DNA of 28,980 nucleotides from a virus. Numbering within the stretch: position 1 is the first letter of the stretch; each line of letters begins with the position of its first letter. The notes beneath the pieces were generated by a model that made no database searches, was not told the origin of the DNA, and worked only from the letters and a program-made list of their open reading frames with translations. The position numbers and the translations under genes are program-made. Shown in pieces: positions 5,501 through 27,488 of the stretch. The DNA is taken from positions 1-28,980 of the IMG/VR virus record IMGVR_UViG_3300030117_006748; one strand, 5' to 3'.

Positions 5501-8500
5501 AAAGATGGTGATTTGATTGAATATTCTGGTAATATTTCAGGATTAAGTACAACAAAAAATTATTACATTTTATTTGATAATAATGACTCATTTAGTTTAA
5601 GTGATGTTGGTGTGGGTGCAACAGATATATCAAACTATAATCGTAGGAAGAAAATTGATCTAAAAGATCAAGGCACAGGATTACATCAATTTAAATATCC
5701 TGAAATAACATTAACATCTCAAATTAATGAAATTGTAGGTATTGGCACCACAACTGTCAAAGTTGGATTGACTTCTTCTGTTGAAGCTGTGATAAAGGCA
5801 AGAGGGAGTATTCAGCAGGTTTATTTGTATGAACCTGGTACTGGTTATGGGTCAAGTATAATTAATAATCATAAAAAACCAATTATAACTTTATCAAACG
5901 GTAAGAACGGATCATTAATTCCAATTATTTCAAATGGAAAAATAAAATCAGTAACAGTAAGTTCAGCAGGGAAAGATTATTTTTCAACCCCAGATTTGAA
6001 TATTATAGATCCTGATGGAAAGGGATCTGGTGCTAAAATTAGACCAATTATTAAAAATAATAGACTTGATAGTGTGGTTGTAACAAATGAAGGTTTGGGA
6101 TATTCTGATAATACTTATATAAATGTGGTATCTGCTGGTAAAAATAATTTATTTGACTCACAGGTAAGATCATTAACTATGATCATTGATAATGACAATA
6201 ATCAGTTATTACAAGAATCTTTAAATAAATTAAAATACTCAGTTACAGGTTATAATCAGTCATTTATTGGAACAAAATCCACTGAGGTTGGTATTGGTAA
6301 TTCTGATTTAATAGGTTGGGCTTATGATGGCAATCCAATATATGGATCCCATGGTAATTCAAATCCTCTAGATACATCAAATCTAACAACAAGATTGAGA
6401 TCGGGATACACTAAAAGTGCAAGTAATATTGAAGATAGACCTGATACATCTATATTTGAAGTTGGTGATTTTATTGAAGACTTTAAATTTGAAAATTCTG
6501 GTGATTTGGATGAACACAATGGTAGATTTGAAATAACAAAAGAATTTCCTAATGGAACTTATGTTTATCATGCCACAGTAACTGATCTCAATGTTCCTAC
6601 CTTCCCTTTCTTTATTGGTAATACATTTAGATCAAAATCAATTGATTTTAATTTCAAAAATAATTTACAAACTAATTTTGATTTCAATTCAAATAATTTA
6701 CTTCGAAATACACTCCCATATAAAGTATCTGATGAATTTGCAAACAATGATTTTTTAGTAGAAACAAATGAAATACAAGATCAAAAAATTGAAATTACAT
6801 CTACATCTTCTGGATCAATCACGGGGTTTAATATTATCTCTGGAGGATCTAATTATAAAGTAGGTGAATTTTTAAAATTTGAGGTAGAAAATCAAAAAGA
6901 TGATATACTATCCTTCATCTCTAAAGTAGATGGAAAAAATATATCTTCAATCACAACAGAAATAGAAGAAAATAATAATTCAGTCATTACTTGGTCTGAT
7001 GGAACTATAAACGTATTTACAGAAAAAAATCATAATTTTAAAAATAATGATGTTGTAAGAATATCTAGTCTCTCTAGTGACATAACACCATTAAATAGAT
7101 CTTTCAAAATAGGAGTAACCACTTCAACAACCAATACTATATCTACAATTACTGGATCACCATCAGCTGGATTCACAACTGAAATATTTGTATCTAATAT
7201 ACCTGATTCAGTTTCTGTGGGTAGTAGTATTGGTATTGGAACTGAAACTTTAGGAATACTAAACATATACAGAAATTTAAATATTTTAACTGTAGAAAGA
7301 GATTCTAACCCATCATTTGGAACGACACATCCAAAAGGATCTGATGTTTCATATTTAATCAATAAATTTACAATTGATAAATCTATACCTGTATTTGAAT
7401 CTCAGGTAAATCAAAAAGTATTCTTTAATCCAGCTCAAACAGTGGGATTGGGCACAGATGATGGTACAGAAAATACATTATCTTTCTCATTTGCTGGTAA
7501 AAATATTACAAGAAATGTCCCTGTAAAACAAATATACATCGAAAACCACCCCTTTAAAACAAATCAAAAAATTAAATTTACTGCACCATCAGGTAATGTA
7601 GTAATATCTCATGATAATGGTGGAACTTCTTTCAATTTACCACAAGATTTATTTGTCGTTAATAAAAATATTAACTCAATAGGAATAAAAACAGAAATTA
7701 ATTCTGATGAGGTTCATTTCATAACTGTTCCCACTGTTAGTGAAAATTTACGTGATAAATTTTTATTTGAAACTGTCTTTGATCAGGTAACTGCAAAAGT
7801 TGAAAGAATAAAAACAACAGTAAAAACAACGGAATCTCATGATTTAAAAAATGATGATAATATATCATTATTGGTCAATCCATCATTATCTGTTGGTATT
7901 GGAACATCAACTGCTATTAGAGTATCAAGAGATTTATTAACTGGAAATACTTTAATCAATCCTGTAGGATTTAATTCAACTGGAATTAATACTACGACTA
8001 ATTCTATAAACATTCAAAATCATGAATTTAAAACTGGTGATAAAGTTAAATATGAATCTGATTTGTTACCAGATGGATTAGAAAACAAAAATTATTTTGT
8101 TTATAAAGTTGATGATGACAATTTGAAATTATCTGAAACATTATCAGACGTATCAAAAAATATACCACTCACAGTTGGTATTGGAAGCACAGGTGGATCT
8201 ACACAATCACTAGCTTTAATTAATCCAGAATTACAATCAATTAAAAATAACAATTTAGTTTTTGATCTTTCAGACTCATCTTTAACTGGTTATGAGTTAA
8301 AGATTTATTATGATAATTTCTTTAAAAATGAATTTATTTCTGACGGAAAAAATACTACTTTTAATGTAGTAACATCAATCGCAAATGGTTCAGTAGGTGC
8401 TGCTTTAACCATTGGATATGGAAATAGTTTACCTAATACATTATTTTACAATTTAGAAAAAACAGGATTTATAAGCACATCAGATACAGAGGTGAAAAAT

Positions 8501-11500
8501 TATTCACAAATATCATTTGTTGATAGTGTTTATAGTGGATCCTATGATATAACAGGAGTAGGTGCCACTACTTTTGAAGTATTTTTAAATAATGTTCCAG
8601 AAAAATTAGTTTATAATGCTACAGATGGAGAAATAAAATATAATACAACATCAAAGAACACAAAAGGATCAATAAACTCCATCAATATTATTTCTAGTGG
8701 TTCTAATTTCAAAAAAATTCCTAATTTTGTAGGAGTAGATACTACCTCACAAGGTTCAGGAGCCTCTATATTACCTACTTCTAATAATATCGGAGATGTT
8801 GAAGAAATTAGAATTATTAATGAAGGTTTTGAATATTCTTCAGATAAAACTTTAGAACCAGAAAGTTTAATATCATCAAGTGTTGACATCAAAAATACAA
8901 ACACTTTAGGTATCGTAAGTATTACTCAAGGTGGAGCAAATTATATTGACCCACCAGATATTATAATAGTTGATTCAGACACAGGTGAAGAAATAAGAAC
9001 TGGATTTATAGAACCTGTTATGTTGGAGAATAGTATTTTCTCCGTAAATGTTACTGAAAAACCTATAGGTTTACCATCAAATAAAGTAACTTTAAGAGCA
9101 ATTAATAATACAAATGGTACTGTCATAACAGATGTTGTCTCAAATGGATCTGGTATTTTTACTTGTAAGATAGCAACACCTTCATCAACATTTGCTGTTG
9201 AACCATTTAGTATAGGTGATACTGTTTTTATTGAAGGTATTGAAAAATTTAGTACTGATGGAACTGGATTTAACTCCAAAGACTATGGATTTAAATTACT
9301 AACAGTCTCTAACTATACTAATAATGTACCAGCAGAGGTCACAATAGATGTTTCAGCATTAACATCAAATACAGGAATCGCAAAGACTGTTGTTGAGACT
9401 TTTGCAACTGTTATTAATAAATCTGATTATCCAGAATTTTTCATAACTCAAAATCAATCAACTTTTGAGCTAGGTGAAAAATTAAGAAGAAAAAACAATG
9501 TGGGTAGTTTTTCAGTGGTTCGAGTTGATAATGGTAAGTTGAAAATTTTAGATAGATCAGATCTATTGAGAATTGATGATGTTTTAATTGGAGAAACTTC
9601 AGGTAGTCAATGCACTGTATCGAAAATAAGTAAAAATATTGGTAGATTAAAAACAGATTTTTCTATTTTAAAAAATCTTAATTGGAATGATAATACTGGT
9701 AAATTAAGTGAAGATTTTCAAGTTGTATCTGATAATGATTATTATCAAAATATGTCATATTCAGTTCAAAGTCCAATTGAGTGGAAAAAATTAAGAACTC
9801 CCGTAAATAATTTACTTCACACTAGTGGTATGAAGAATTTTGCTGATACGACTGTGCTTTCTGATGCGGTGGTAGGAGTTGGATCAGACAGTAATGTTAA
9901 TATAGTTATCGATGTAATTAATGAAAAGAGAGTGGATGAAATAAGAAATATTGATCTTGTATCGGATGCTGAACCTATTGTTGACAATACAAGTAGATTT
10001 GTCAAATTTGAAAATATAAGATTAACAGATTTTGTAAGTTGTAAAACTAATGATGTATTAACTATTGATAATATAAATCAAGAATTTACAAATTTACAAG
10101 GAAATGCAAATGAATTTTTAGATATATTTGAATTTTCTAATTCAACATCAAGCAGATTGTTCAATAATTTAATTATAATTACAAAAAGTTCATCTGGAAC
10201 TAATAGAATTCAAATATCAGATTTTATCCTCTTAAGTAATGGGGTAAAAAATATCTTAGTAGAAAAATCTAATTTAATTAACTCTGGGACTGGATTCACT
10301 AATTTAAATGAGGATAATTTTGCTAACTTTACACTGAACAAAGATATTACAGACAAAGTTGTCTCAGGTGTCTCTACAATTGTTGAAACAAACACCCTAA
10401 GATTTGCACCAATTCCTGCAGCTGATGCGGATTATGATTTAAAAATATTCTCAGCACAATTTAATGAAAATACTGTAGGATTTGGATCAACATCTATAGG
10501 ACCTATTGATTTAAATTCATCAAAGCAGTCCTGTACTACAGGAATAACAACAAATATCATTGTTGCTCCACTTAGTGAATTTGAATCATTATATGCCACA
10601 ATACAAATAACTGATGACACAACTAAAGAAATGAATTTAGTTGAGACTTTTGTTTCTCATTCAGGAACTGATACTTTCCTATCAGAAGCATATTTTAATA
10701 CAGATGATAATAAATTATCACTGAATAAATTAGGAATTATAACGTCTAGTATATCAGAAAATAATTTAATATTGAGTTTAGAAAATGATGGTAGTAATAC
10801 TTTAAATTTAAGATCAAAAATTATAGGTATTGGAACAACTGGAGTTTCGAATGGCACATATAGATTCAAAACAACTGGTCAAGCAGATGGTAGTGAAAGA
10901 ACATCAATATATTCTGGTTTATCTTCAACAAACGTTGGAATATCAACATTAATTACTTTAAATGCTAATGGATTTAATGCAATCAAATCTGTTGTAGAGG
11001 TAAGTATTGGAGCATCTAAAGCTATACATGAAGTATTATCTCTTCATGATGGAACAGATGCTTATGTTCAACAATCTGGATCTTTATCAATCACTAAAAA
11101 TAGTTTAACCGAATATGATCCTTCAGTAGGATTTGGAACATTCAGTGCAAATCTGTCTGGATCTAACTTTAGTATTGAGTTTCATCCTGATAATATCACT
11201 GGTATTTCAACAGTTATATCATTAAATCATGCTTTTTATACACAAATTGATGAAGAGAATGATCCTGAAAAATTGATTTATGGTTCAATTACTGAAGATA
11301 ATTCATTCCAATTATATACTTCTAGATTAGGTAATAGAATTGAAAAAACTCAATTTAGAATTAATAACAATTCAATACCTATTTTTGCAAAGGTATTTAA
11401 TCCCTCTGATACTAGTATTCTTGATCCTGCTACTGGAAAATTTAGTATTCAAAATAGTTTCTTTAGAGAGAATGAAGAATTAATCTATAAACCTAAATCC

Positions 11501-14500
11501 TCATTCATAGGTGTTGGGTCAACTCCTATGCAATTTAAAAATGGAACTGCAATTGATGCTTTACCAAGCACAGTATTTGTTAAGAATGTAGGAGCTGGTG
11601 GAACATCCTTCTTTATATCAACAACTAGAGCAGGAACAGCAGTTACTTTTGTAAGTTTAGGTGAAGGAAATGCCCATGAATTTAGCATGGCAAAGGCAAA
11701 TGAAAAAACACTTATTTCAATTGATGATGTAGCACAATATCCCTTAATTAGAAATAATGTCTCACATACATTAAATAGTAATTCTGGTAATGTTGGTTTA
11801 ACTACTACAATAATTCATCTTAGTGGAATTTCCACAGTAAGCACTGACGATATTTTAAAAATAAATGATGAGTTTATGTCAGTGATAAACGTAGGATTTG
11901 CGACGACTGGAGGGGCACCTGTAGGTACATCGGGTACATTTAATACAGTTGAAGTTAAAAGGGCATTTGTGGGCACCTCAGCTACCACACACTCAAATGG
12001 TGATGTTGCGACAATATTTAGAGGTTCTTATAATATTGTTGGTAGAGATATATTCTTTACAAAAGCACCGAGAGGTGATGTCACTAAAACAAAAACAATC
12101 AATAATTTAAATCCACCTACATCTAATTTCTCTGGACGTGTATACCTTAGAAACAATTATGATTCGAATGCAATATATGATGATATATCTGATCAATTTA
12201 CAGGAATTAACTCAACATTTACTTTAAAAGTTGGTGGAGCAAATACAATCGGAATAGGAACTACTGGTGGTAGTGGTATAATGTTTATTAATGGAATATT
12301 CCAATCTCCATCCACTCAGTTTAATACAGGAAAGAATTTCAAAATAATTGAAAGTGGTAGTGGTGCTAGTGGAGTTACCAGTGTTGTATTTACGGGTATT
12401 ACATCAAGTGACGGATCTATATTTTCTTCAAACAATATAAACATGAATGAATTGCCAAGAGGTGGTGTGCCAGTGGCAATCGGAAATACAATCAATGGAT
12501 TAGGATATGCTCCTCTGGTAAATGCTAATGTTAAAGCAATTCATGATGCTGCTGGTGCAGGAGGTATAGGAACCATAGTTGGAGTTGCTTTCAGTGGATC
12601 TGATTTAGTGGTTGAGAATGCTGTTTATAATGGTTCTACAGGAATAATGTCAATTAGAACAAAAGGTGAGCATAAATTCAAAGACTCCAATGATTTTGTA
12701 TTGATTAATAATATAGGTTTTAGCCCCAGTCTTAATATTAAAACATCTGAAATTGAGGTCGTATCTGTAGGTGCTACAAATATTTTCAATATTAGTATTG
12801 GAAAAACTGATACAACATTTAATTATACTGGTTCAGGATCAACTGCTGGTGAAGCATATCCATTCTTCCCTAATTTAACTTTTGGATCTGGATATAATGG
12901 ATTATCACCAATTGGTGTTGCCGTAACTGATTTAGGATATGAACATCGTTTTATATCCGCAAATGCAAATGCTATTACTTTCTCCACTACTGGTGCAACC
13001 ACATATGCACCAACAGATGCTATATATGATCCTGTGACAGGTGTATTACAACTCACCATTGCTAATCATGGATTAGAGGGAGATGGAGAAGATGGTAGTA
13101 ACACTATTAACATAAGAGTTGGAAGTTTATTCTTCTCATGCTCAAGAGATAATTTCCGCACAGTTCATCCATATCCAAGATCAACAAATACAACAGTAGT
13201 TGGTGAAAATCTAAAGATTACAAAAATTAATGATGATATATTCAGTGTAGTAGTAGGTAAAAACGTTGGGAATGGTGCTCAGGTAACTGCAACAGTTGGT
13301 GTAGGGGGAACATTAATATTTGCAGTTGGTGCTGCAGGAGCAGACTATAAAGATCCAATTGTATCTGTATCTCTACCATCTTACTCAAACTTATCTGTAA
13401 CTGGTGTTTCTAGATTAGGATTGGGTGCAACAACTGATACTGGAACAGATTTAAGAGTTAATGCAATTGTAAAACCAGCTACGGGTATTGGATCTACCTT
13501 ATTTGAAATATCCGAATATGAAATTGTTAATAAAGGATTTGGATTTAAAAAAGGTGATGTGGTTGAGGCAGTTGGGTTAGTTACCGCAAAAGGAATGCCC
13601 TCTCTTCTTGAAAAATCAACGTTAACTATAGATAAAATTTATAATGATTCCTTTGCTTTATGGCAGTTTGGTGATTTTGATTACATAGATTCAATAAAAG
13701 ATGAGCAAAATGGAGAAAGAAGTCAATTTGATCTACTTCTTAATAGTCAATTAATTAGTTTTGAACTTGGAAGTACGTTAAATCCTAGCGTTAGAAAAGA
13801 AAATTTATTTTTAGTTGTTATAAATGGAGTGATTCAAGAACCAACTACATCTTATACAATAGTTGGTGGAAACATAATTAGTTTTTCCGAACCACCTGTT
13901 CCTGAAGATGATATCACAATTTTATTCTATAAAGGGACACAAGATGAAGATTCAATAGTAAATTTAAAACAAAAATTAACCATTGAAGAGGGAGATGAGA
14001 TTCAAATAACTCAAGGATTTGGAGTTAAGGGGCAGGGTAAGAGAACTGTATTTAGTTTGGATACATCACAAAAATTGGAAACAAATCCATATTTACTTCA
14101 GGGTGTTAATTCTACAGTAAACAGACCACTTAATCTCATTAAACAAAAAGTAGATAAAATTATTAATAAGAGTCCTGTTTCGAAGAAAAGAGCAAGTATT
14201 GAACCAAGAATAAGTCCTGTTTCTAAGGTAATTGGTGATGTAAAAGCAGGAGATACAGAAATTTATGTTGATAATGCAGATTTATTTAAATATGAGTTTG
14301 CAAACACAGATGAACCTAATCTATCATTCTCTCTATTTACAGATCCATCAGTTAAAATAGGAGCTGCTGCGACATGCACAGTATCAGCTGCTGGTACAAT
14401 CAGTGCTATAACAATTACCGAAGGTGGTTCTGGTTATACATTTGCTCCTTCTATTCAAATCGCACCACCAGTTGGTGGTGGTATAACTGCTACGGGAGAG

Positions 14501-15196
14501 GCATCTGCTGTCAATGGGGTAGTTGTAGGTGCAGATGTCTTTACGATAGGATCTGGTTACACAAGTACAAATCCACCACAAGCGATAATTCGAAAACCAG
14601 CATTCCCTTATGAAAACATCACATTTAAAAATTCAGATGTAGTTGATAATATTCAAAGTAATGTAGGAGTAGTAACTGGTATTGGAACAACAACCACATC
14701 GTCATCAAAATTAGGAATTAAATTTACACTTAGACGTGAAGATGTTAATCGTAATAATTTTGTATTAAAAAGTCCAATAGCAGTAGGAAAACCAATTTAT
14801 ATTTTTGATACTCGTGTTGGATCAGGTGTTGAATCAATTAGTAATAGTGGGTCAGATACTGATGTGGTAGGTATTGGTGGGTCATTTGTTGACAATGTTT
14901 ATATTGTCGAGTCTGTCAGTGATAGTGGATCTGGTACTGGTATAGTAACATGCCTAATTAAATCAAATACAACCACCACTGGTATATCATCATCAGGAAC
15001 TGATAAATTACCTGTGGGTAAATATTCAGTTGGAGTCGTTAAGTCTTTAACTAGAGGATCAAACCCAATATCAATAGGTGTAACTGGTCTTACTGTTGGA
15101 TTGGTAACAGCAACAGGAATATCTACTTTCCCAACATTAAAGAGAAATGGTGGGGAAGATACCTTTGAACAAACTGGATCAATAATACCAGAATAA
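2552..15196 (+). CDS. Giant baseplate wedge protein in the gp7 position, 4,214 residues, multi-repeat, with YHYH-like domain
   Basis: One uninterrupted frame of 12.6 kb lying where T4 encodes gp7 (1,032 residues), between gp6 and gp8, so a role as wedge initiator and baseplate periphery is inferred. Residues 1-280 (KVKIQDVILNQLPDFI start; LFLKEFYKKFKTTFLPG; RSLYQTKGTDESFRILF) resemble the N-terminal domain of large structural proteins at this locus in marine T4-like phages and are the likely baseplate anchor. The rest is beta-rich modules. An EIITYT-type module occurs near residues 90-150, and repeats with NHxFxxGDxVxY near 617-697, 860-940, 973-1050 and 1818-1890. GxGY(T) modules occur near 1088-1215, 2042-2145 and 3949-4020. 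A YHYH-like domain spans about 1255-1355, and an NGVIQEPTTSYTI fibre-type motif lies near residue 3760. GIGTT-like pentapeptides recur throughout. It starts by ATGA overlap with gp6 and has no Shine-Dalgarno, so it is probably translationally coupled. True orthology to T4 gp7 is not proven beyond position. Confidence 0.85.
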   Translation: MIETGIISKVKIQDVILNQLPDFIKEESPLTVDFLKQYYTSQEYQGGPSDISDNLEQYLNVNNLTPEVIVDSSTTVGLTTVGAETIKVTSTKGFPNHYGLLKIGDEIITYTDSKSDRFIGCKRGFSGITSYHSDTNKEDLVFSSSSATEHAESSTIQNLSSLFLKEFYKKFKTTFLPGLEETDFQSNLDVGTFIGEARSLYQTKGTDESFRILFNVLYGIDPKIINLEDRLIKPSFATYVRRRICVAELLEGNPVKLKGQSLLKGLTGQTLFRSDLDLNINAAISEIEPFERIDSGVSGITTYYKIGLFVGYDENTDIEGDFVVVPNTKSIGYATSESTVISVDSTIGFGVTGTLLSGNDTINYTDKTVNQFLNCTGITSIVPTQNVRSDITYFGFEDGDLNKKVVLRLTGVLSDFKQTEKLDVEEGEIISVKSIGDKVENPIINKTNKETFCNSWIYNTSSSYFVDRKDEGNNIFLKSKIDRSSLKKGDRVDVVDRNLGVTTTSAPVENIDSSNNSITIGSTFSGSGNIYKIRKQLNKANSIGAPIEYGNDVIISDVLNVYTEGDNAYVTSNSLPSFVSDDSEFSKQIDINVKKSEIISPNNTAFSGDSGDKLDFTTIKFPTNVKFKTGDKVFYSSQGDTLVGLETGTYFVKVENVNNQPRKIKLFGSPSGIDNNQIITFAVSENASTHTFILDSQKSGQIGAQKLIKKFPLTPNLSNGIDEPTPVGEIGMLVNGVEITNYKTNDKVYFGPLSSIDVLNGGEDFDVINLPNITVSAGIGTTALVQPVASGKIVDVFVDPQDFDIDKVISLSVTGGNGSGCVLEPITGTRFREKLFSAQISDGSSAGITTITPNNKISTIIFPSNHNFINGEPIIYDSNLNPEIIVGTGTDTLVNGATYYPQFINSKSIRLYESSSDLSAGIGTIAFHKESAGTHIFKVGVKNTLLDVKVIDGGENYTNRKLFVKPAGISTSTDSINFKDHGFKDGDLIEYSGNISGLSTTKNYYILFDNNDSFSLSDVGVGATDISNYNRRKKIDLKDQGTGLHQFKYPEITLTSQINEIVGIGTTTVKVGLTSSVEAVIKARGSIQQVYLYEPGTGYGSSIINNHKKPIITLSNGKNGSLIPIISNGKIKSVTVSSAGKDYFSTPDLNIIDPDGKGSGAKIRPIIKNNRLDSVVVTNEGLGYSDNTYINVVSAGKNNLFDSQVRSLTMIIDNDNNQLLQESLNKLKYSVTGYNQSFIGTKSTEVGIGNSDLIGWAYDGNPIYGSHGNSNPLDTSNLTTRLRSGYTKSASNIEDRPDTSIFEVGDFIEDFKFENSGDLDEHNGRFEITKEFPNGTYVYHATVTDLNVPTFPFFIGNTFRSKSIDFNFKNNLQTNFDFNSNNLLRNTLPYKVSDEFANNDFLVETNEIQDQKIEITSTSSGSITGFNIISGGSNYKVGEFLKFEVENQKDDILSFISKVDGKNISSITTEIEENNNSVITWSDGTINVFTEKNHNFKNNDVVRISSLSSDITPLNRSFKIGVTTSTTNTISTITGSPSAGFTTEIFVSNIPDSVSVGSSIGIGTETLGILNIYRNLNILTVERDSNPSFGTTHPKGSDVSYLINKFTIDKSIPVFESQVNQKVFFNPAQTVGLGTDDGTENTLSFSFAGKNITRNVPVKQIYIENHPFKTNQKIKFTAPSGNVVISHDNGGTSFNLPQDLFVVNKNINSIGIKTEINSDEVHFITVPTVSENLRDKFLFETVFDQVTAKVERIKTTVKTTESHDLKNDDNISLLVNPSLSVGIGTSTAIRVSRDLLTGNTLINPVGFNSTGINTTTNSINIQNHEFKTGDKVKYESDLLPDGLENKNYFVYKVDDDNLKLSETLSDVSKNIPLTVGIGSTGGSTQSLALINPELQSIKNNNLVFDLSDSSLTGYELKIYYDNFFKNEFISDGKNTTFNVVTSIANGSVGAALTIGYGNSLPNTLFYNLEKTGFISTSDTEVKNYSQISFVDSVYSGSYDITGVGATTFEVFLNNVPEKLVYNATDGEIKYNTTSKNTKGSINSINIISSGSNFKKIPNFVGVDTTSQGSGASILPTSNNIGDVEEIRIINEGFEYSSDKTLEPESLISSSVDIKNTNTLGIVSITQGGANYIDPPDIIIVDSDTGEEIRTGFIEPVMLENSIFSVNVTEKPIGLPSNKVTLRAINNTNGTVITDVVSNGSGIFTCKIATPSSTFAVEPFSIGDTVFIEGIEKFSTDGTGFNSKDYGFKLLTVSNYTNNVPAEVTIDVSALTSNTGIAKTVVETFATVINKSDYPEFFITQNQSTFELGEKLRRKNNVGSFSVVRVDNGKLKILDRSDLLRIDDVLIGETSGSQCTVSKISKNIGRLKTDFSILKNLNWNDNTGKLSEDFQVVSDNDYYQNMSYSVQSPIEWKKLRTPVNNLLHTSGMKNFADTTVLSDAVVGVGSDSNVNIVIDVINEKRVDEIRNIDLVSDAEPIVDNTSRFVKFENIRLTDFVSCKTNDVLTIDNINQEFTNLQGNANEFLDIFEFSNSTSSRLFNNLIIITKSSSGTNRIQISDFILLSNGVKNILVEKSNLINSGTGFTNLNEDNFANFTLNKDITDKVVSGVSTIVETNTLRFAPIPAADADYDLKIFSAQFNENTVGFGSTSIGPIDLNSSKQSCTTGITTNIIVAPLSEFESLYATIQITDDTTKEMNLVETFVSHSGTDTFLSEAYFNTDDNKLSLNKLGIITSSISENNLILSLENDGSNTLNLRSKIIGIGTTGVSNGTYRFKTTGQADGSERTSIYSGLSSTNVGISTLITLNANGFNAIKSVVEVSIGASKAIHEVLSLHDGTDAYVQQSGSLSITKNSLTEYDPSVGFGTFSANLSGSNFSIEFHPDNITGISTVISLNHAFYTQIDEENDPEKLIYGSITEDNSFQLYTSRLGNRIEKTQFRINNNSIPIFAKVFNPSDTSILDPATGKFSIQNSFFRENEELIYKPKSSFIGVGSTPMQFKNGTAIDALPSTVFVKNVGAGGTSFFISTTRAGTAVTFVSLGEGNAHEFSMAKANEKTLISIDDVAQYPLIRNNVSHTLNSNSGNVGLTTTIIHLSGISTVSTDDILKINDEFMSVINVGFATTGGAPVGTSGTFNTVEVKRAFVGTSATTHSNGDVATIFRGSYNIVGRDIFFTKAPRGDVTKTKTINNLNPPTSNFSGRVYLRNNYDSNAIYDDISDQFTGINSTFTLKVGGANTIGIGTTGGSGIMFINGIFQSPSTQFNTGKNFKIIESGSGASGVTSVVFTGITSSDGSIFSSNNINMNELPRGGVPVAIGNTINGLGYAPLVNANVKAIHDAAGAGGIGTIVGVAFSGSDLVVENAVYNGSTGIMSIRTKGEHKFKDSNDFVLINNIGFSPSLNIKTSEIEVVSVGATNIFNISIGKTDTTFNYTGSGSTAGEAYPFFPNLTFGSGYNGLSPIGVAVTDLGYEHRFISANANAITFSTTGATTYAPTDAIYDPVTGVLQLTIANHGLEGDGEDGSNTINIRVGSLFFSCSRDNFRTVHPYPRSTNTTVVGENLKITKINDDIFSVVVGKNVGNGAQVTATVGVGGTLIFAVGAAGADYKDPIVSVSLPSYSNLSVTGVSRLGLGATTDTGTDLRVNAIVKPATGIGSTLFEISEYEIVNKGFGFKKGDVVEAVGLVTAKGMPSLLEKSTLTIDKIYNDSFALWQFGDFDYIDSIKDEQNGERSQFDLLLNSQLISFELGSTLNPSVRKENLFLVVINGVIQEPTTSYTIVGGNIISFSEPPVPEDDITILFYKGTQDEDSIVNLKQKLTIEEGDEIQITQGFGVKGQGKRTVFSLDTSQKLETNPYLLQGVNSTVNRPLNLIKQKVDKIINKSPVSKKRASIEPRISPVSKVIGDVKAGDTEIYVDNADLFKYEFANTDEPNLSFSLFTDPSVKIGAAATCTVSAAGTISAITITEGGSGYTFAPSIQIAPPVGGGITATGEASAVNGVVVGADVFTIGSGYTSTNPPQAIIRKPAFPYENITFKNSDVVDNIQSNVGVVTGIGTTTTSSSKLGIKFTLRREDVNRNNFVLKSPIAVGKPIYIFDTRVGSGVESISNSGSDTDVVGIGGSFVDNVYIVESVSDSGSGTGIVTCLIKSNTTTTGISSSGTDKLPVGKYSVGVVKSLTRGSNPISIGVTGLTVGLVTATGISTFPTLKRNGGEDTFEQTGSIIPE
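4400..5700 (+). repeat. Three diverged copies of an ~80-residue beta module (NHxFxxGDxVxY type)
   Basis: At protein level, copies start near 4400, 5129 and 5470. Each opens with a strand, then an FKTGDKVFY, FINGEPIIY or FKDGDLIEY turn, then a YY-containing strand and a ligand-like KLF, RLYES or SLSD strand, and ends with a THTF, THIF or LHQF motif. A related copy is at about 8003-8220 (HEFKTGDKVKY). Copies are too diverged to align as DNA, indicating old duplication. Confidence 0.6.
5812..6135 (+). repeat. Triple GxGY(T) beta module in the gp7-position protein
   Basis: Three successive copies of the pattern V-x-V-x-x-x-G-x-G-Y: YLYEPGTGYGSS, VTVSSAGKDYFSTPDLNI and VVVTNEGLGYSDNTYINV. Each is followed by a polar loop with GKxGS- or GKGSGAK-like sequence. 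Spacing is about 40-45 residues. Same module type as in gp8, the DUF4815-like protein and gp14. Confidence 0.65.
6311..6640 (+). other. YHYH-like domain inside the giant protein
   Basis: Residues about 1254-1360 carry, in order, GWAYDGNPIYG, then LDEHNGRFEITKEFPNGTY, VYHATV and FPFFIGNTF. This is the order of landmarks in the YHYH domain family (GWALDGxPIYGP, LDECNG, TYHYHxT, YPYxxGC). The cysteines are replaced by other residues and the YHYH itself reads YVYH. The YHYH family function is not established. Recognition is by eye and needs a profile search. Confidence 0.65.
8671..8960 (+). repeat. Second triple GxGY-type beta module block in the gp7-position protein
   Basis: Copies read INIISSGSNFKKIPNF, IRIINEGFEYSSDKTL and VSITQGGANYIDPPDIII, spaced about 40 residues apart, with a GSGAS loop between the first two. 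The third is the best match to the GxxYxxPPxIxI consensus. Confidence 0.6.
14386..14600 (+). repeat. C-terminal tandem GSGYT modules in the gp7-position protein
   Basis: Two close copies: ITITEGGSGYTFAPSIQI followed by a GGGITATGEASAV linker, then VFTIGSGYTSTNPPQAII. These are the clearest consensus copies in this gene and closely resemble those inserted in gp14. They lie near residues 3949-4020, about 200 residues from the C-terminus. Confidence 0.7.
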
Positions 15197-15216
15197 TGGT
15201 ATCTTAACAAATGTTG

Positions 15217-15224
15217 TATAAATA
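15217..15224 (+). promoter_or_regulatory. T4-type late promoter, TATAAATA
   Basis: Second exact copy of the late promoter octamer, in the 45-base gap between the giant gene's stop (15196) and the gp8 start (15242). Its spacing to the start codon (17 bases from end of box to ATG) equals that at the gp25 promoter (also 17 bases), which supports a real site. The predicted leader is about a dozen bases, A-rich, without a Shine-Dalgarno. Confidence 0.8.
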
Positions 15225-15241
15225 TCTAAAAAACTATTAAT

Positions 15242-16834
15242 ATGCCCGCAGTAGTAACAGATCAGTTTAGAATAACAAACGCAGGTAATTTTGTAGATTC
15301 TGTATTAAATTCTAATAATTCTTATTATGTGTTTTTAGGTTTACCTAATCCTAAAGGAGTTGGATTTGGCAGAACAGATAACTGGGATACATCTACACCA
15401 GATCCAGTGGATAATCTAGAGTATCTGACCCATTATAGAGACACATCATTATTTGGAAAAAAAATTAATTCATCAAATATCCGAAGAGTTGTAAAAAAAC
15501 ACACTTGGATTGCTAATGAAAGATACGATATGTATCGTCATGATTATAGTGTCAATAATTTATCACCTAATTCACAATCTGCAAGTTTATATAAATCAAA
15601 CTATTATGTGATAACTTCAGAGTTTAAAGTTTATATTTGTATAGATAACGGAGGTTCTGGTGCTCCTGGTAGTACTGATGCTAAGGGAAAGCAGACACAA
15701 ATTGAACCTTCATTCACAGATTTACAACCAGCATCTCCAGGTGTTGGAGATCCTTATACTTGGAAATACTTATTTACAGTTTCACCAAGTGATGTGATAA
15801 AATTTGACTCAACTGAATATATAATTCTACCTAATGATTGGTCAACTACTACTGATTCTCAGATACAAGCAGTGAGGGAATCAGGAGATTCTGATGTAAA
15901 TAAAAATCAAATCAAAAAGGTTTTTATAAAAGATAAAGGATTGGGATATACCGATAGATCTGAACCTTATTCATGTGATATTCTTGGTGATGGTGAAGGA
16001 GCAAAATGTCAGGTAACAGTTGTTGGTAATGAAATTACTGATATCATAGTTACTGCAGGTGGTTCTGGATATACTTTTGGTGTAGTTGATTTAAATCCTA
16101 TTAATTTTGCAGGAGATGCAACATCTAGACGAGCTAATTTAATACCAATTATACCACCATCTAAAGGTCATGGATCAGACATTTACACAGAACTTGGTGC
16201 TGATAAAGTCTTAGTTTATTCAAGATTTGATGATTCAACAAAAGATTTTCCAGTTGATACACACTTTGCTCAAGTGGGAATAATTAAAAATCCAACTCAA
16301 TTTAACACATCAAATTTATATACTGAATCTCAATTTTCATCATTATTTGCTATTAAATTAACCCCATCCTTTGCAAATGAAGTTGATGACACGGACGATT
16401 TAATTGGTGTATCAATAGCACAAACTGCTACGGGAACTTCTGCATCAGCTGAGGGTATAGTGGCTTCTTATGATAAAGATACTTTTGTTTTGAAATATAT
16501 TCAAGATCGAAGTTTGTATTTAAATCCAGTTACTGGTGATAATGAGGATTATTCAGGTGTTAATTTAAATGCAAATGTTCTTCCATTTACATCTGATACT
16601 TCTGTTGTATTCAGTGGATCATTTTCAGGTAATGGTTCAATTGATAATAATTTTACTGGTATAAGCACAACTATAGGTGGTAAAAATATTAATTTAGGAG
16701 TTAACTTTACAAATGGTCTAGCTAATCCTGAAATAAATAAAAAGACTGGTGATATTATTTACATCGATAATCGAAAAGAAGTTGAAAGAGACATCAGACA
16801 AAAAGAAGACGTTAAAATTATTCTGGAATTCTAA
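15242..16834 (+). CDS. gp8: Baseplate wedge subunit gp8, enlarged
   Basis: 530 residues against 334 in T4 gp8, the wedge protein that dimerises and contacts gp7, gp10 and gp6. The N-terminus VVTDQFRITNAGNFVDS and YVFLGLPNPKG, then FGRTDNW, correspond to the T4 gp8 opening and its FGRSEPW segment. GDPYTWKYLFTVSPSDV followed by STEYIILPNDW matches T4's GDGYVWEYLF and EYIVVPW (residues about 170-205). The extra length begins directly after this, with two GxGYT modules (KGLGYTDRSEP and GGSGYTFGVVDL, 15914-16092). The gp8-like chain then resumes at PSKGHGSDIYTELGADKV. The C-terminal 150 residues contain an SAEGIVAS module and beta-rich sequence. It is the first gene after the second late promoter; the next gene starts five bases after its stop. 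Confidence 0.9.
   Translation: MPAVVTDQFRITNAGNFVDSVLNSNNSYYVFLGLPNPKGVGFGRTDNWDTSTPDPVDNLEYLTHYRDTSLFGKKINSSNIRRVVKKHTWIANERYDMYRHDYSVNNLSPNSQSASLYKSNYYVITSEFKVYICIDNGGSGAPGSTDAKGKQTQIEPSFTDLQPASPGVGDPYTWKYLFTVSPSDVIKFDSTEYIILPNDWSTTTDSQIQAVRESGDSDVNKNQIKKVFIKDKGLGYTDRSEPYSCDILGDGEGAKCQVTVVGNEITDIIVTAGGSGYTFGVVDLNPINFAGDATSRRANLIPIIPPSKGHGSDIYTELGADKVLVYSRFDDSTKDFPVDTHFAQVGIIKNPTQFNTSNLYTESQFSSLFAIKLTPSFANEVDDTDDLIGVSIAQTATGTSASAEGIVASYDKDTFVLKYIQDRSLYLNPVTGDNEDYSGVNLNANVLPFTSDTSVVFSGSFSGNGSIDNNFTGISTTIGGKNINLGVNFTNGLANPEINKKTGDIIYIDNRKEVERDIRQKEDVKIILEF
15914..16092 (+). repeat. Two GxGYT modules inserted in gp8
   Basis: Copies VFIKDKGLGYTDRSEPYS and IIVTAGGSGYTFGVVDLN, about 40 residues apart, with a GDGEGAKCQV loop between them. 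They lie just after the part that aligns by eye with T4 gp8, so they account for part of the size difference. Confidence 0.65.
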
Positions 16835-16839
16835 ACAAA

Positions 16840-19800: not shown

Positions 19801-22800
19801 TCAAATATAAGGGCATCAGATACTTTTGACTTCAGACCAAGAGTTTCTATATATGATCCATCTTCTGATACAGGATCACCTTTTGAATTTGGAAAAAGAG
19901 ATTTTAGTGGAAATGCTGTTTTAAGATACCTAACACCAAATGAAAGTTCAATTGCCAGTTTTGAACATTATTTACCTAGAGTTGATAAAGTATATTTAAA
20001 TAAGTTTGGTGATTTTATTTATGAAAAAGGTATATCTTCAATTGATCCTAAACCACCAACTAAAGTTGGTGAGTTAATGGAATTAGCATCGATTGGATTA
20101 CCAGCATATTTGTATAATACTCAAGATGCAGTATTAACATTGGTGGATAATCGAAGATTTACCATGAGAGATATTGGTGATATTGAAGATCGAGTTGCTG
20201 ATTTGGAAGAAACTACAACTTTATCTCTTTTAGAGATTGATGCCCAAACTTTACAAATTCAGGATGAGGAAGGAAGAAATAGATTCAAAACTGGATTTTT
20301 TGTAGATCCATTTAAAAATTATAATTTTATTAACACGAACTTATCATCAATACAAATTAATCCACAAGCTCAAGAATTAATACCATTTAGAACAAGGGAT
20401 ACATTAGCATCTCAATTAACACCAGCACAAACCACTATTAGTTCTGATTTAGATTTTAACACTGATTTTGAATTATTTGATTCAAATGTTAAAAAGACAG
20501 GAAATGTTGTCACTTTAAATTATGAAGAAGTAGAATTTTTATCTCAACCATATGCAACAGAAATCATAAATGTTAATCCTTATGAGTTACCAGTATTCTC
20601 AGGTAAAGTCGAATTAGATCCTCAAAGTGATACTTGGACAAGAACAGTCCAACTACCTGATCAAGTAATTCGACAAACAGGAAAGAATACTGTTAAAACT
20701 ATTAACATGAATTTCCTAGATGAGGCACCATCCTCTGTAAACTTAGGTAAAAGAGGTAAGTTTCAAGTAGGGAAAATTGATCTTAATAGATCTGGAGATG
20801 GTCAAAAAACATTTAGTGATGTAGATGAAACAATTCAAAATAATTTAGTATCATCAAGCACTGATGACTTTATGAGATCAAGAAATATACAATTTATTTC
20901 TGAAGGTTTTGTAGATTTTGTTGAAACATATCTATTCATTGATGGGCAAAAAATAGTTGATATAATTCCTAAATTACTTGAAATTACACCAACTTTCAAT
21001 GGTGTTGATTCTGGATCAAATGGTCAATTTAATATTGGTGAAGAAGTTCATGCATTAGATGGACAGGGTAATGTAATTATGAAATTCAGAGTTTGTCAAC
21101 CTGATCATAAATCTGGAAAATATAATAGTCCATCTGAAGTTTATTTTAATAATCCATATTCTTCTGGTGTGACTAAAATTTCTCAGAAATATAGTCCAAC
21201 ATCTACAGTTTTGAACGTTGATACAAAATCTTTATCAGAAGAAGCACAAGGTCAATACTTTGGATATGTTGAAAAAAATTCACAACTAGTTGGTCAAGAG
21301 AGTGGAGCAACTGCGTATGTCAAAAATTTAAGATTAATTACGGATGCATTTGGAGATTTAATAGGTTCATGTTTTATTCGTGATCCTCATTCACAACCTG
21401 CTCCCAGTGTAAAAATACAAACTGGAGTAAAAGAATTCAAAATAACCACAAGTCCTAAAAATGAAAACGTAGCACCAGCACAAAAATTTGGACTTATATT
21501 TGCTAAATCAAAATACTCTGCTTTCGGTACAGTTGAGGAATGGCAAGATACAGTTACTCTTACGACAAATACTACAACATTTAAGGTTGATGGTGAAATT
21601 GAATACACAGATCCATTAGCACAGACATTTGTTGTGGGTGGAAATGTTTTGGCACCAAGCGCTGTAAATGCAAATAGAGATCTAAATGGAATTTTTGTAA
21701 CAGCAGTTGAGGTTTATTTTTCAACTGTTGATACTGTTTCAAACACTCCTATTCGTTGTGAAATCAGATCTACGATTGCAGATGCAAGACCTTCAACTAC
21801 AGTAATTGGTAGAAGTAAAACATTGAGACCAAAAGGCACTGATGCGAATGGTAATGAAGTCACACTCATTGAATCAGACTCTGAATCTGCAAGTAAGGCA
21901 ACTAAATTTACCTTCCCTGAACCAATTTATTTGGCACCAGGTAAATCATATGCTTTTGTTTTAGTAGCACCTAATAGTACTGCATATACAGTATGGACAG
22001 GAAGACATGGTGAAATAGCAGTCAATCCAGATACGATACAAGGTGCTGACTCTGGAGCATCATTATTCTACTCAACTCAATATGGTGCAGGTGCGATATT
22101 TAAATCTCAAAATGGTGCTCTTTGGACTGAAGATCAATCACAAGACATAACATTTAAAATATACAAAGCCAAATTTACATCACAATCTGGATCAGTATTC
22201 TTTAATAATCCTGATTTAAATGATAGTAATGGTTATGTTTCTAAGTTATTGGATAATCCAATTTTAACATTACCCAAGACAGGATCAATTGGAATCACAA
22301 CCAACTTCACTAATGCTGATATTACTAAATTGGTTGCAGGTAGAAAAATATCTGCTTCATTTAATACTAGCACTGCTGTGATCACAGGAACTGGAAGTAC
22401 AGTTGATGGTGCAAGTATATTAAGTGGTGGAACTAATTACACGAATACTGCTTCTCTTACTAACAGTGTGGATACATTTGCAATTACTGGTAAGGGTTCT
22501 GGTCTTAAATTAAATTTAACCGTAGCCGATGGTATTATTACTGGATTGGATGGCACTACACCGATAGTTGCACCTGGAAATGGATATCAAGTTGGAGATG
22601 TGGTTGGTATTGTTACAAGCGATGCTGGTAATCAGGGTACAGGTGGACAAATAACAATTGATGCCATACAGGGTGTTGATACATTATTCTTAACTGATAT
22701 ACAAGCCACTGCATCGTCATTCAATCCAAATAGTGGAATTGGAATTTCATTCTTTAATGATGCAGATACAACAACACCTACAGGAACAATTACAGGAGAT

Positions 22801-24204: not shown

Positions 24205-24407
24205 TAAGAGTAGAAGGTCATTCAAATTTATACAGAGATGAGAGGACAGGAGCAATTGTCAATTGTGACGATGTTGGATATATGCAGCATGTAAAATACT
24301 TGGAAAATCGTAAAAAACAAAAGAGAGAGATGAATGACTTACGAAAAGAACTAGATGAAATAAAGTCTTTATTAAAAAATTTAGTAGAGGGTGATAATAA
24401 GTCATAA
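24201..24407 (+). CDS. Small conserved-type coiled-coil protein, 68 residues
   Basis: The first 28 residues (MIRVEGHSNLYRDERTGAI, then VNCDDVGYMQH) form a compact, probably folded start. They are followed by a long charged helix from about residue 30 (KYLENRKKQKREMNDLRK, ELDEIKSLLKNLV) with leucine and isoleucine at heptad-like spacing, so a coiled coil is likely. Small genes of this kind, with the GHxNLYRDxxTGAIVN opening, are familiar from marine T4-like phages next to the DUF4815 gene; no function is known to me. It overlaps the preceding giant gene by ATGA, so it is probably made in step with it, which hints at an accessory, chaperone-like or linking role. Its stop lies inside the third late promoter box. 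Confidence 0.85.
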   Translation: MIRVEGHSNLYRDERTGAIVNCDDVGYMQHVKYLENRKKQKREMNDLRKELDEIKSLLKNLVEGDNKS

Positions 24408-24410
24408 ATA
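24403..24410 (+). promoter_or_regulatory. Probable late promoter, CATAAATA
   Basis: One mismatch from TATAAATA, overlapping the stop codon of the 68-residue gene and ending 28 bases before the ATG at 24439. It lies in the only other non-coding gap of comparable size in the window (24408-24438). Context supports a weaker or variant late promoter for the 112-residue gene, the 142-residue gene, gp13, gp14, gp15 and gp16. Confidence 0.55.
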
Positions 24411-24438
24411 TAGTTAGGAATAATATTATTACAAATAA

Positions 24439-24777
24439 ATGGCCGCTGTATTTGTTTCAAATTTAATTATAAACTCTGGATCTTCTTTTGAGCAAACATT
24501 TGATTTGGCAAAATCAGATGATTCAGGTCCATTAAATTTGGATAATGCTACAGTTACTTCACAATTTAGAAAACATGCTGGCAGTACAACCAAACATGAT
24601 TTTACTACCACAAAGGATAGTGAAACTGAAGGAAAATTAACCATATCACTCACAGCAGTGCAATCTGCTGTTCCTAAACCAGGCAGATATGTTTATGATA
24701 TTATAATTACTGAAGGATCAAAAATAACCAGAGTGGTCGAAGGGTCTGTTCTAATAAGAGAAGGAGTAACTAGATAA
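24439..24777 (+). CDS. Small beta-sandwich-like virion protein, 112 residues
   Basis: The sequence opens with VSNLIINSGSSFEQTFDL and continues with alternating strands (PLNLDNATVTSQFRKHAGS, TEGKLTISLTAVQSAVPKP, GRYVYDIIITEGSKITRVV), ending EGSVLIREGVTR. The pattern 'fibre-like strand, LTxA/LDxxTVxxQxRKH, then PGRYVYDxxIT and RVVEGxVxIxxxVTR' recurs in small phage structural proteins and suggests an immunoglobulin- or BppU-N-terminal-like beta sandwich; this is inference from pattern only. It has no signal peptide or membrane segment. It is first behind the third promoter, and its stop overlaps the next start by one base (TAATG). AGGA at 24416-24419 is too far upstream to be a good ribosome site. 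Likely a decoration, baseplate or fibre-adaptor part; exact role unknown. Confidence 0.85.
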   Translation: MAAVFVSNLIINSGSSFEQTFDLAKSDDSGPLNLDNATVTSQFRKHAGSTTKHDFTTTKDSETEGKLTISLTAVQSAVPKPGRYVYDIIITEGSKITRVVEGSVLIREGVTR

Positions 24778-25205
24778 TGGCAGTTAAAGTCAATGTTGTT
24801 CAAAATCCTCTTAAAGTAAGAGTTGGGCAAACAGACGCCGTAAAAGTTATATCATCTAATTCTGGTGGTGGTGGAACTTCAGAAACAGCAATAAATGTTA
24901 TTGGTGGTATAGCCTCAGTAACTCAATTAAATGTATCTGGTATCTCAACACTTGCTGGAATTGCATCAGTTACTGGTGAAACATTATTTACAAATCAATT
25001 TAGTGTATCTGGTGTTTCTTCATTTACAGGTATTGTAACAACCACCAGTGATTTATATGTTGGGGGTGATTTATTCGTAGGTGATGATATCATTTTTGAT
25101 GAAGTCACTGGAAGAAATCTAAATATCACAGGTATAGGAACTGTTGGTACATTAAATGTGACTGGAACATTAACTGCTGGATTAATCGATGGAGGCTCGT
25201 TCTGA
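24777..25205 (+). CDS. Small fibre-like repeat protein, 142 residues
   Basis: After a short N-terminal domain (VKVNVVQNPLKVRVGQTDA, VKVISS) and a GGGG hinge near residue 30, the protein consists of short valine/glycine strand repeats. Examples are LNVSGISTLAGIASVTG, FSVSGVSSFTGIVTTTS, LYVGGDLFVGDDI and LNITGIGTVGTLNVTG. It ends in LTAGLIDGGSF. This x-V-x-G-x-(S/L)-x-x-x-G periodicity is typical of trimeric beta-helix or beta-prism shafts in phage fibres and fibritin-like proteins. It lies where T4 encodes gp11, gp12 and fibritin, so a short fibre, collar or whisker-like role is plausible but unproven; at 142 residues it is far shorter than T4 gp12 (527) or fibritin (487). AAGGAG at 24761-24766 gives a good ribosome site 10 bases before the ATG, unlike most genes here. 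Confidence 0.82.
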   Translation: MAVKVNVVQNPLKVRVGQTDAVKVISSNSGGGGTSETAINVIGGIASVTQLNVSGISTLAGIASVTGETLFTNQFSVSGVSSFTGIVTTTSDLYVGGDLFVGDDIIFDEVTGRNLNITGIGTVGTLNVTGTLTAGLIDGGSF

Positions 25206-26050
25206 TGGCAAAACCAAGTAGTAGACAAGAATTAATTGATTACTGTTTTCGTAAATTAGGTGCACCAGTATTAGAAATTAATGTGGATGATGATCAGGCA
25301 GATGATCTGGTGGATGATGCTCTTCAATTATTTGGGGAGAGGCATTTTGATGGTATTGAAAGAATGTATCTTAAGTATGAATTAACACAGGAGGATATCG
25401 ATAGAGGTAAAGCTGCTAATACTGATGGTGTGGGGATTGTTACTACCACTGGAAATTCTACAAATGTAAGTGGTTTAGGAACTGTTACTTCAAACTTTTA
25501 TGAAACATCCAACTTCATTCAAGTTCCTGATGCAGTTGTAGGGATAGATAGAATATTTAAATTTGATACAAGTTCCATATCAGGTGGAATGTTTAGTATT
25601 AAATATCAGTTATTTTTGAATGATCTTTATTACTTTAACTCTGTAAATCTTTTACAATATTCTATGACTAAGAGATATCTTGAAGATATTGATTTCTTAC
25701 TAACCACTGATAAACAAATAAGATTTAACAAAAGACAAAACAGATTATATTTAGATATTGATTGGAAAGCTCAGGAAGTTGGAACATTTTTAGTGATTCA
25801 ATGTGATAGAATTTTAGATCCTGATAACTTTACTGGTGTCTATAATGATAGTTTCTTGAAACTTTATCTTACATCCTTGATAAAAAGGCAATGGGGTCAA
25901 AATTTAATTAAGTTTCAGGGAGTCAAATTACCTGGTGGACTTGAATTAAATGGTAGACAAATATACGATGATGCAGAAAGAGAGTTGGAAAGCATTAGAT
26001 CAAGACTTATATCCGAATATGAATTACCTCCTCTTGATTTTATAGGATAA
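25205..26050 (+). CDS. gp13: Neck protein gp13
   Basis: 281 residues against 309 in T4. gp13 joins gp14 to form the neck that closes the filled head and connects it to the tail. The opening SSRQELIDYCFRKLGAPVL, then EINVDDDQADDLVDDALQ and ERHFDGIERMYLKYELTQ, is the standard start of gp13 proteins in marine T4-like phages. The rest contains VVGIDRIFKF, a LLQYSMTKRYLEDIDFLL helix region, FNKRQNRLYLDIDW and a C-terminal helical part (FLKLYLTSLIKRQWGQNLI; DDAERELESIRSRL), all expected for the family. GGAGG at 25191-25195 lies nine bases before the ATG, the strongest ribosome site in the window. The start overlaps the previous stop (TGATG); gp14 begins four bases after its own stop. Confidence 0.92.
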   Translation: MAKPSSRQELIDYCFRKLGAPVLEINVDDDQADDLVDDALQLFGERHFDGIERMYLKYELTQEDIDRGKAANTDGVGIVTTTGNSTNVSGLGTVTSNFYETSNFIQVPDAVVGIDRIFKFDTSSISGGMFSIKYQLFLNDLYYFNSVNLLQYSMTKRYLEDIDFLLTTDKQIRFNKRQNRLYLDIDWKAQEVGTFLVIQCDRILDPDNFTGVYNDSFLKLYLTSLIKRQWGQNLIKFQGVKLPGGLELNGRQIYDDAERELESIRSRLISEYELPPLDFIG

Positions 26051-26054
26051 TAAT

Positions 26055-27488
26055 ATGGCATTAAATCCCTTTTTTCTACAAGGATCACAAAGTGAGCAGA
26101 GACTTGTTCAGGATTTGGTTAATGAACAGTTAAAAATTTATGGTGTTGAGGTAAAATATTTACCAAGAAGAATTGTAAACAAAGATAATATTTTTACAGA
26201 AATACAATCATCTAGATTTAGTGATAATTTTTCAATAGAGGCATATGTAAACACATATGAAGGGTATGGTGGTGCTGGTGATATCATGACCAAATTTGGC
26301 ATGAGTTTAAAAGATGAATTAATAGTTACAATATCAAAAGAAAGATTTGAAGATTTTATAGCACCATTCTTGCAAACTTTACCAGAGGGAGAGATAGAAG
26401 TTGCCACAAGACCTAGTGAGGGGGATTTAATATTTTTCCCACTAGGACAAAGAATATTTGAAATAAAGTTTGTAGAACACGAAAAACCTTTTTATCAGTT
26501 AGGTAAAAATTATGTCTATGAACTTCGTTGCGAACTCTTTGAACTTGAAGATGAAATGGGAGGTTGGGATCAACTTAGCACCACGACAGAAGAAATTGAT
26601 GATGTTCTTGTGGATCAGGGATATATCACTTCACTTAAACTGATATCAATCGGTTCTACTGCAACTTTAGGAGTAACCACTACATCTGGTTATGTTCGTA
26701 AAATAATCCTTAATGATGATGGATTTGATTACACAAAAACACCAACTGTATCAATTAGTGCTGCCCCTGCTGGAGGAACAAATGCTACTGCGGTGGCAAT
26801 CACAACATCAATCAATGGTGTAAATTCAGTCAAAGAAATTTTACTAACAAACACGGGAGCAGGATATACAGTCACTCCCACTGTCACAATTGTAAGTGCT
26901 GCGTCAACAATACTCGGTATAGGTTCAACTACATTTGGTGTAGGAGCTGCTGCGACAGCATCACTAGTTACAGATAGTGTTGGTATTAAATCTATTTCTA
27001 TTATATCAAGTGGTAGTGGATATCCTACTGCACCTACCTTATTCTTTAATACACCATCTTCTGGCATAAACACTGCAACAGGTAGAGTTTTAATTAATGA
27101 TACAAATAATACTGTTTCACAAGTTCTCATATCTAATGCAGGTATAGGATACACTTCTGGAACAGGAATTGCTACAGTATCTCCACCACCAGTTATAACA
27201 GGCATCGGAACATATCAATTTAATGAATTGGTTACAGGTTCAATATCTGGAGCAAAAGGAAGAGTTAAGAGTTGGAATGTAACAACTAATACACTCAAAT
27301 TAGGAACCACTGACGGAACTTTTGTAGCAGGTGATGTAATTGTAGGAGCAGCTTCTTCTGCTAATTATACTGTTGATTTCATTGAATCTGCAGAATTTTC
27401 TGATAAATATGATAAAAGTGATGAAATTGAGACAGAAGCTGATGCTATTATTGATTTCTCAGAAAATAATCCATTTGGTACATTCTAA
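26055..27488 (+). CDS. gp14: Neck protein gp14 with an internal repeat insertion
   Basis: 477 residues, nearly twice T4 gp14 (256). gp14 binds gp13 at the neck. Residues 1-180 are the family core: NPFFLQGSQSEQRLVQDLV, VEVKYLPRRIVNKD, then DIMTKFGMSLKDELIVTIS and GDLIFFPLGQRIFEIKFVE, ending in the YELRCELFELEDE strand. The family C-terminus reappears at the end as ADAIIDFSENNPFGTF. Between them, about residues 190-440, sits a foreign-looking beta block: four GxGY(T) modules (26695-27180), then an SGAKGRVKSWNVTTNTLKL module (GTFVAGDVIVGAAS). The block leaves both core ends in frame, as expected for a surface loop. AGGA at 26044-26047 is a modest ribosome site. The stop overlaps the gp15 start by one base. 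Confidence 0.9.
   Translation: MALNPFFLQGSQSEQRLVQDLVNEQLKIYGVEVKYLPRRIVNKDNIFTEIQSSRFSDNFSIEAYVNTYEGYGGAGDIMTKFGMSLKDELIVTISKERFEDFIAPFLQTLPEGEIEVATRPSEGDLIFFPLGQRIFEIKFVEHEKPFYQLGKNYVYELRCELFELEDEMGGWDQLSTTTEEIDDVLVDQGYITSLKLISIGSTATLGVTTTSGYVRKIILNDDGFDYTKTPTVSISAAPAGGTNATAVAITTSINGVNSVKEILLTNTGAGYTVTPTVTIVSAASTILGIGSTTFGVGAAATASLVTDSVGIKSISIISSGSGYPTAPTLFFNTPSSGINTATGRVLINDTNNTVSQVLISNAGIGYTSGTGIATVSPPPVITGIGTYQFNELVTGSISGAKGRVKSWNVTTNTLKLGTTDGTFVAGDVIVGAASSANYTVDFIESAEFSDKYDKSDEIETEADAIIDFSENNPFGTF
26695..27180 (+). repeat. Four GxGY(T)xxPxVxI modules inserted in gp14
   Basis: Copies read IILNDDGFDYTKTPTVSI, ILLTNTGAGYTVTPTVTI, ISIISSGSGYPTAPTLFF and VLISNAGIGYTSGTGIAT. They start near 26695, 26828, 26985 and 27114, so the period is about 43-52 residues. 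Linkers are rich in Gly, Ala, Ser and Thr (GGTNATAVAITTS, LGIGSTTFGVGAAATAS). The first three match the consensus best; the fourth has lost the proline. Confidence 0.75.

Follow-up and report, generated by a model that had tools for sequence, protein, structure and literature searches.

The window, a 28,980-base IMG/VR viral record, contains the baseplate and neck gene cluster of an ocean T4-type, Kyanoviridae-like (cyanophage) phage. Its genes are gp25, gp6, the gp7-position protein (4214 aa), gp8, a DUF4815/VrlC protein, two small ORFs, gp13, gp14, gp15, and gp16. Pfam models match gp14 (PF11649, T4 gp14 neck protein; 7.5e-31) and gp8 (PF09215, T4 gp8 wedge protein; 3.8e-11). The nearest named phage found is Synechococcus phage S-SRM01 (Kyanoviridae), with identities of 55% for gp14 and 46% for the DUF4815 protein. 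A 142-aa ORF at 24777-25205 matches several giant baseplate wedge PHROGs (1469, 13163, 19601) over part of their length.

The four proteins named in the original prediction (gp7, gp8, DUF4815, and gp14) carry copies of the GxGY unit, a beta-structural repeat of about 40-45 residues with a Gly-x-Gly-Tyr turn, at levels well above chance by HMM. A seed HMM built from copies picked by eye matches these four proteins in the window and the corresponding positions in other phages. Iteration on envelope coordinates strayed into the gp8 flanks, and a model trimmed to 39 columns was used instead. The profile of 166 copies reads G-x-[IV]-xx-[VI]-x-[IV]-x-[ND]-x-G-x-G-Y-[T]-xx-P-x-[IVL]-x-[IV]...G-x-G-A-x-A. 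The first Gly of the turn is invariant (166/166), Tyr is present in 152/166 copies, and the Gly of the GSGA loop in 128 of 145. The xxP extension described earlier holds for part of the family: Pro is found in 97/166 copies, and is lacking in the majority of gp8 and DUF4815 copies and in many of those in gp7.

With the 39-column HMM, units start at aa 751, 1129, 1171, 1421, 2039, 2081, 2118, and 3948 of gp7, aa 222 and 264 of gp8, aa 1854 of DUF4815, and aa 212, 257, 311, and 352 of gp14. The seed and gene-specific HMMs add units at gp7 aa 1085 and 3989 and DUF4815 aa 1898, for totals of two in gp8, two in DUF4815/VrlC (the weakest), and four in gp14. The predicted gp7 blocks are present, although they number six rather than three (aa ~751, ~1085-1196, ~1421, ~2039-2157, ~3948-4013, and a degenerate one near 943-974). 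The features, all on the + strand, are as follows.

4802..4915, +: gp7 unit, aa 751-788 (39-column HMM E 0.0024; gp7 HMM 3.1e-9)
5804..6139, +: gp7 three-unit block, aa 1085-1196 (middle unit 5.7e-12, 39-column HMM; first unit 4.7e-10, seed HMM)
6812..6904, +: gp7 unit, aa 1421-1451 (39-column HMM E 0.0025; gp7 HMM 9e-5; DUF4815-only HMM 4.9e-4)
8666..9022, +: gp7 three-unit block, aa 2039-2157 (39-column HMM 2.7e-5, 0.083, 0.0014)
14393..14590, +: gp7 two-unit block near the C-terminus, aa 3948-4013 (39-column HMM 1.2e-10; gp14-only HMM 1.3e-8)
15905..16150, +: gp8 unit pair, aa 222-303, an insertion relative to T4 gp8 (39-column HMM 0.0024, 0.0013; gp7-only HMM 6.3e-4; predicted strands 227-302)
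16337..16627, +: gp8 extra small beta-barrel (modelled), aa 366-462, absent from T4
22396..22674, +: DUF4815/VrlC unit pair, aa 1853-1945, the most divergent copies (seed HMM 1.2e-8, 8.2e-5; 39-column HMM E 0.02)
26688..27194, +: gp14 four-unit array, aa 212-380 (39-column HMM 2.4e-9, 8.6e-6, 9.3e-7, 2.9e-4; pLDDT 76-95)
27210..27392, +: gp14 small beta-barrel (modelled), aa 386-446 plus strand 187-200, enclosing the array and absent from T4

The gp7-position protein also contains a second, unrelated repeat of ~75 aa that is restricted to gp7 (HxFKTGDxVxY; window aa 860, 975, 1488, 1818, and 1912, nt ~5129, 5474, 7013, 8003, and 8285), which gives 30 matches in named phages and one weak line in reversed proteins. 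A YHYH domain (PF14240, 8e-23) occupies gp7 aa 1250-1344 (nt 6299-6583), shortly after a GxGY block. Phage S-SSM7 has two adjacent long genes with the name gp7 (L017 1562-10585 and 11651-20656), one on each side of a baseplate/fibre connector gene; there the gp7-position protein seems to have been split or duplicated.

Recurrence across genes was assessed by a leave-one-gene-out procedure, in which one HMM per gene was built only from that gene's copies, avoiding circularity, and run against 484 ORFs (163 kaa) from 11 phages. The gp14-only HMM finds 18 gp7 units (best 1.6e-10), and the gp7-only HMM finds 35 gp14 units (1.4e-9) as well as gp8 (7e-5). The gp8-only HMM reaches gp7 at 0.0016, while the DUF4815-only HMM reaches gp7 at 2e-5 and both gp14 and gp8 at about 2e-3. 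When the 484 ORFs were reversed or locally shuffled, no gene-specific HMM gave a match at E<0.01. At the same threshold, the 39-column model picks up 142 units in the four families and a single further unit elsewhere among the ORFs, and the controls stay empty. Profiles of one gene thus recover copies in the others above background, in line with what had been anticipated.

Scans of the phage and bacterial carriers with Pfam-A and NCBIfam placed no curated model above cut-off on the units, and the motif string did not turn up in a literature search. A tblastn search of phages with an idealised consensus gave no match, probably owing to low-complexity masking. Levanase fragments were the sole matches of the unit profile in a PDB sequence search (E 0.12) and were rejected as chance.

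AlphaFold models, computed from 44 gp14 and 56 gp8 sequences, predict tandem three-strand beta units in both proteins. In the predicted unit, strand b1 (VxxIxVxN) is followed by the tight GxGY turn, a short b2 (PTVTI), the Gly-rich GSGA loop, and b3 (AxAxAxV), which forms a hairpin with b1 of the next unit, leading to tandem stacking. The same strand order is predicted for gp8 aa 227-302. The gp14 array is modelled with pLDDT 76-95, the gp14 core poorly, below 60. The gp8 model aligns with T4 gp8 (1n7z; Z 16.5, 267/328 residues, rmsd 3.9), the gp14 N-terminal core with T4 gp14 (9lu4; Z 9.8, 109 residues, rmsd 4.3), and neither model appears in the other's list of structural matches. As proposed at the outset, the unit therefore resides in proteins with different cores. 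The T4 proteins have these core folds in common with the window, but lack both the repeat and the small barrel; relative to T4, gp14 and gp8 have each gained the two elements. The extra small barrels of gp14 and gp8 weakly resemble aIF2gamma/EF-Tu-type barrels (Z about 4-6). Foldseek and VIA searches with whole gp14 and gp8 models returned core and barrel matches only and listed no solved counterpart of the array, which says little. BFVD matches (P22 gp10-like, phiM9 wedge, and cyanophage structural proteins) have good E-values, with TM scores mostly near 0.1-0.2 that make them hints only. The papers searched contained no cyanomyophage (Kyanoviridae) virion structure.

The unit is not special to the adjacent genes in which it was first noticed. 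Whole-record searches with a profile made from phage copies only detect 10-18 copies in each of ten cyanophages, four in pelagiphage HTVC008M, and none in the whole T4 genome. Cyanophage copies also lie far from the cluster, in genes annotated as tail fibre, baseplate wedge, or virion structural. The consensus matches 19 PHROGs, 17 of them tail, connector, head, or structural, and two with an unknown label. The profiles of PHROG families 460, 2885, 438, 701, and 5342 contain the unit, and these families cross-match one another for that reason; they are whole-protein families, and none sets the unit apart as a domain of its own. The HTVC008M gp7-position protein I899_gp055 (L179 33435-36485) bears the name 'head closure Hc2', which is probably a mislabel: the protein matches phrog_2885, a gp7 family, and part of its resemblance to gp14 (phrog_460, matched from aa 484) overlaps a repeat.

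Judged by profile matches, the unit is also not phage-specific, as bacterial and archaeal proteins contain it. In cellular genomes it is sporadic. At 1e-6 it occurs in 4/79 genomes of the phylum of a Verrucomicrobiae carrier and in 1/81 of the phylum of a Bacillus carrier, the centre genome being included in each count. These samples provide the prevalence, since the bacterial loci fetched with the idealised consensus were selected for carrying the unit. Cellular carriers can hold long arrays. Bacterial multicopper oxidases with unit arrays are found at loci L193, L236, L258, and L222 (1-6402; by NCBIfam), the last with 19 units by the phage HMM, and a bacterial GH64 glucanase with a dockerin also carries the unit. 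Multicopper oxidase and GH64 glucanase domain types are usually secreted.

Within the phages, copies occupy the same sites per gene in the orthologues of the 11 genomes. Units are carried by 88/88 complete gp14 proteins in this sample (two to six each, four in 72) and by 89/91 complete gp8 proteins (mostly two). The nearest neighbor of a copy belongs to the same gene in 133/160 cases, against 61 by chance, and in 132 of the 160 to the same gene of another genome. A tree of 144 units shows 19 changes of gene label (53-65 after shuffling) and 119 of genome label (99-114 after shuffling); the tree rests on 39 columns, such that single branches mean little and the label counts are the evidence. 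Cross-gene similarity within a genome is not raised in the 11 phages (p 0.05-0.72), and synonymous codons at identical residues show no excess sharing (347 observed, 381 expected from codon usage). Grouping by gene and the lack of excess codon sharing place the spread across genes before the split of the sampled Kyanoviridae genera. These comparisons indicate that the spread among virion genes is ancient, and not the product of recent exchange. Grouping by gene rather than by genome is the outcome that the original prediction had named as leaving recent copying unsupported.

An immunoglobulin-like domain is a sandwich of about 90 residues, whereas the GxGY unit has about 40, a GxGY turn, and three predicted strands. 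The two are alike as promiscuous beta-domains of unrelated virion proteins and cellular proteins, and the occurrence in several proteins that is typical of phage Ig-like domains (Fraser et al. 2006, 2007, as cited in PMC10385173; for example, T4 Hoc) is also seen for the GxGY unit. In contrast to Ig-like domains, with their patchy presence and recent exchange, the unit occupies fixed sites in core wedge and neck proteins, is inherited with them, and groups by gene in the sampled Kyanoviridae. Ig-type Pfam models gave no significant match on carriers or units, and a Big_3_2 hit on another ORF (0.29) is chance. The tandem BACON repeats of crAss-like phages, for which a binding role has been proposed but is unproven (PMC6949934), resemble the GxGY repeats as tandem beta-units in tail-associated proteins with bacterial relatives, and expanded by old duplications (PMC6949934). 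BACON is Ig-like with its own Pfam model (PF13004), which found no match in scans of whole proteins and units, whereas GxGY is one unit type across gp7, gp8, DUF4815, and gp14. Of the systems compared, phage Ig-like domains and BACON repeats come closest, and the add-on surface role proposed for the GxGY unit follows the one ascribed to them on other phages.

The reading we favor, with some reserve, is that the GxGY repeats are ancient insertions into loops of tail and neck proteins, vertically inherited, and most likely exposed add-on surface domains. The unit would have been inserted long ago, and more than once, into permissive loops of gp7, gp8, the DUF4815 protein, and gp14, and into other virion genes of the phage lineage. 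It would since have passed down vertically without changing sites, its sequence diverging more quickly than the cores of the host proteins. Exposed units may extend and stiffen the outside of the wedge and neck, and may present a repeated surface for weak contacts with the host envelope, fibres, or neighboring virion proteins. We infer exposure and a contact role from loop insertion, faster divergence, the presence of the unit in fibre-type genes, and its association with domain types that are usually secreted. In gp14, mean pairwise identity is 0.745 for the core, 0.58 for units 1-2, and 0.36-0.39 for units 3-4; in gp8, it is 0.67-0.81 for the core and 0.56 for the units. Purified S-SM1 virions yielded gp14 as a newly detected protein (PMC3037559). 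Insertion and faster divergence are the basis for exposure, and neutral loosening would give the same pattern.

The units might instead act as an internal assembly staple, contacting neighboring subunits of the ring or wedge as a marine-phage replacement for T4 contacts and not facing the host. In gp14 and gp8 the sites are fixed and the number of units hardly varies, which agrees with such a role, as does the retention of the invariant Gly, Tyr, and Pro in gp14 units 1-2. The fair conservation of these two units and of both gp8 units (0.56-0.59) fits an internal interface too. Divergence faster than that of the cores, and occurrence in fibre-type genes and bacterial proteins, point the other way, and we regard a staple as rather unlikely. 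The original prediction also envisaged a putative carbohydrate- or protein-binding unit whose copies might interlock in the virion. As gp14 is located at the neck and gp7 and gp8 at the baseplate, at opposite ends of the tail, a lock between gp14 and gp7 or gp8 copies in the finished virion is unlikely.

Convergence, in which Gly/Thr-rich beta stretches have become alike without common origin, is improbable. The unit is short and of such composition, which leaves room for some convergence between genes, and DUF4815 and gp8 copies reach each other weakly (E about 1e-3 to 1e-2). However, cross-gene matches extend to 1e-10 with none in reversed and composition-matched shuffled proteins, a single unit falls outside the four families among the ORFs of the clusters, and searches of whole bacterial genomes give matches at 5e-12 while most random genomes have none. 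The mobile-domain reading of the original prediction, recent copying between neighboring genes, is very hard to credit: one gp7/gp8 pair is alike in DNA (78.7% over 47 bases), but it is not among the pairs with excess codon sharing, and copies group by gene at orthologous sites with neither a within-genome excess nor shared codons beyond expectation.

A further-reaching reading, put forward tentatively, is that of an uncatalogued, widespread beta-repeat family, without a Pfam or NCBIfam model and with no solved homolog found by sequence, in the neck, wedge, hub, and fibre proteins of cyanophages and pelagiphages. Such a family would give the virion a common type of exterior surface from neck to baseplate. 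The unit is present in nearly all sampled marine T4-like gp14 and gp8 proteins but is not covered by any model in the domain databases searched, and it probably misleads annotation, as for the HTVC008M gp7-position protein. With a named domain model, these large virion proteins could be annotated, and it could be tested directly whether phage add-on beta-domains bind hosts or simply build surface.
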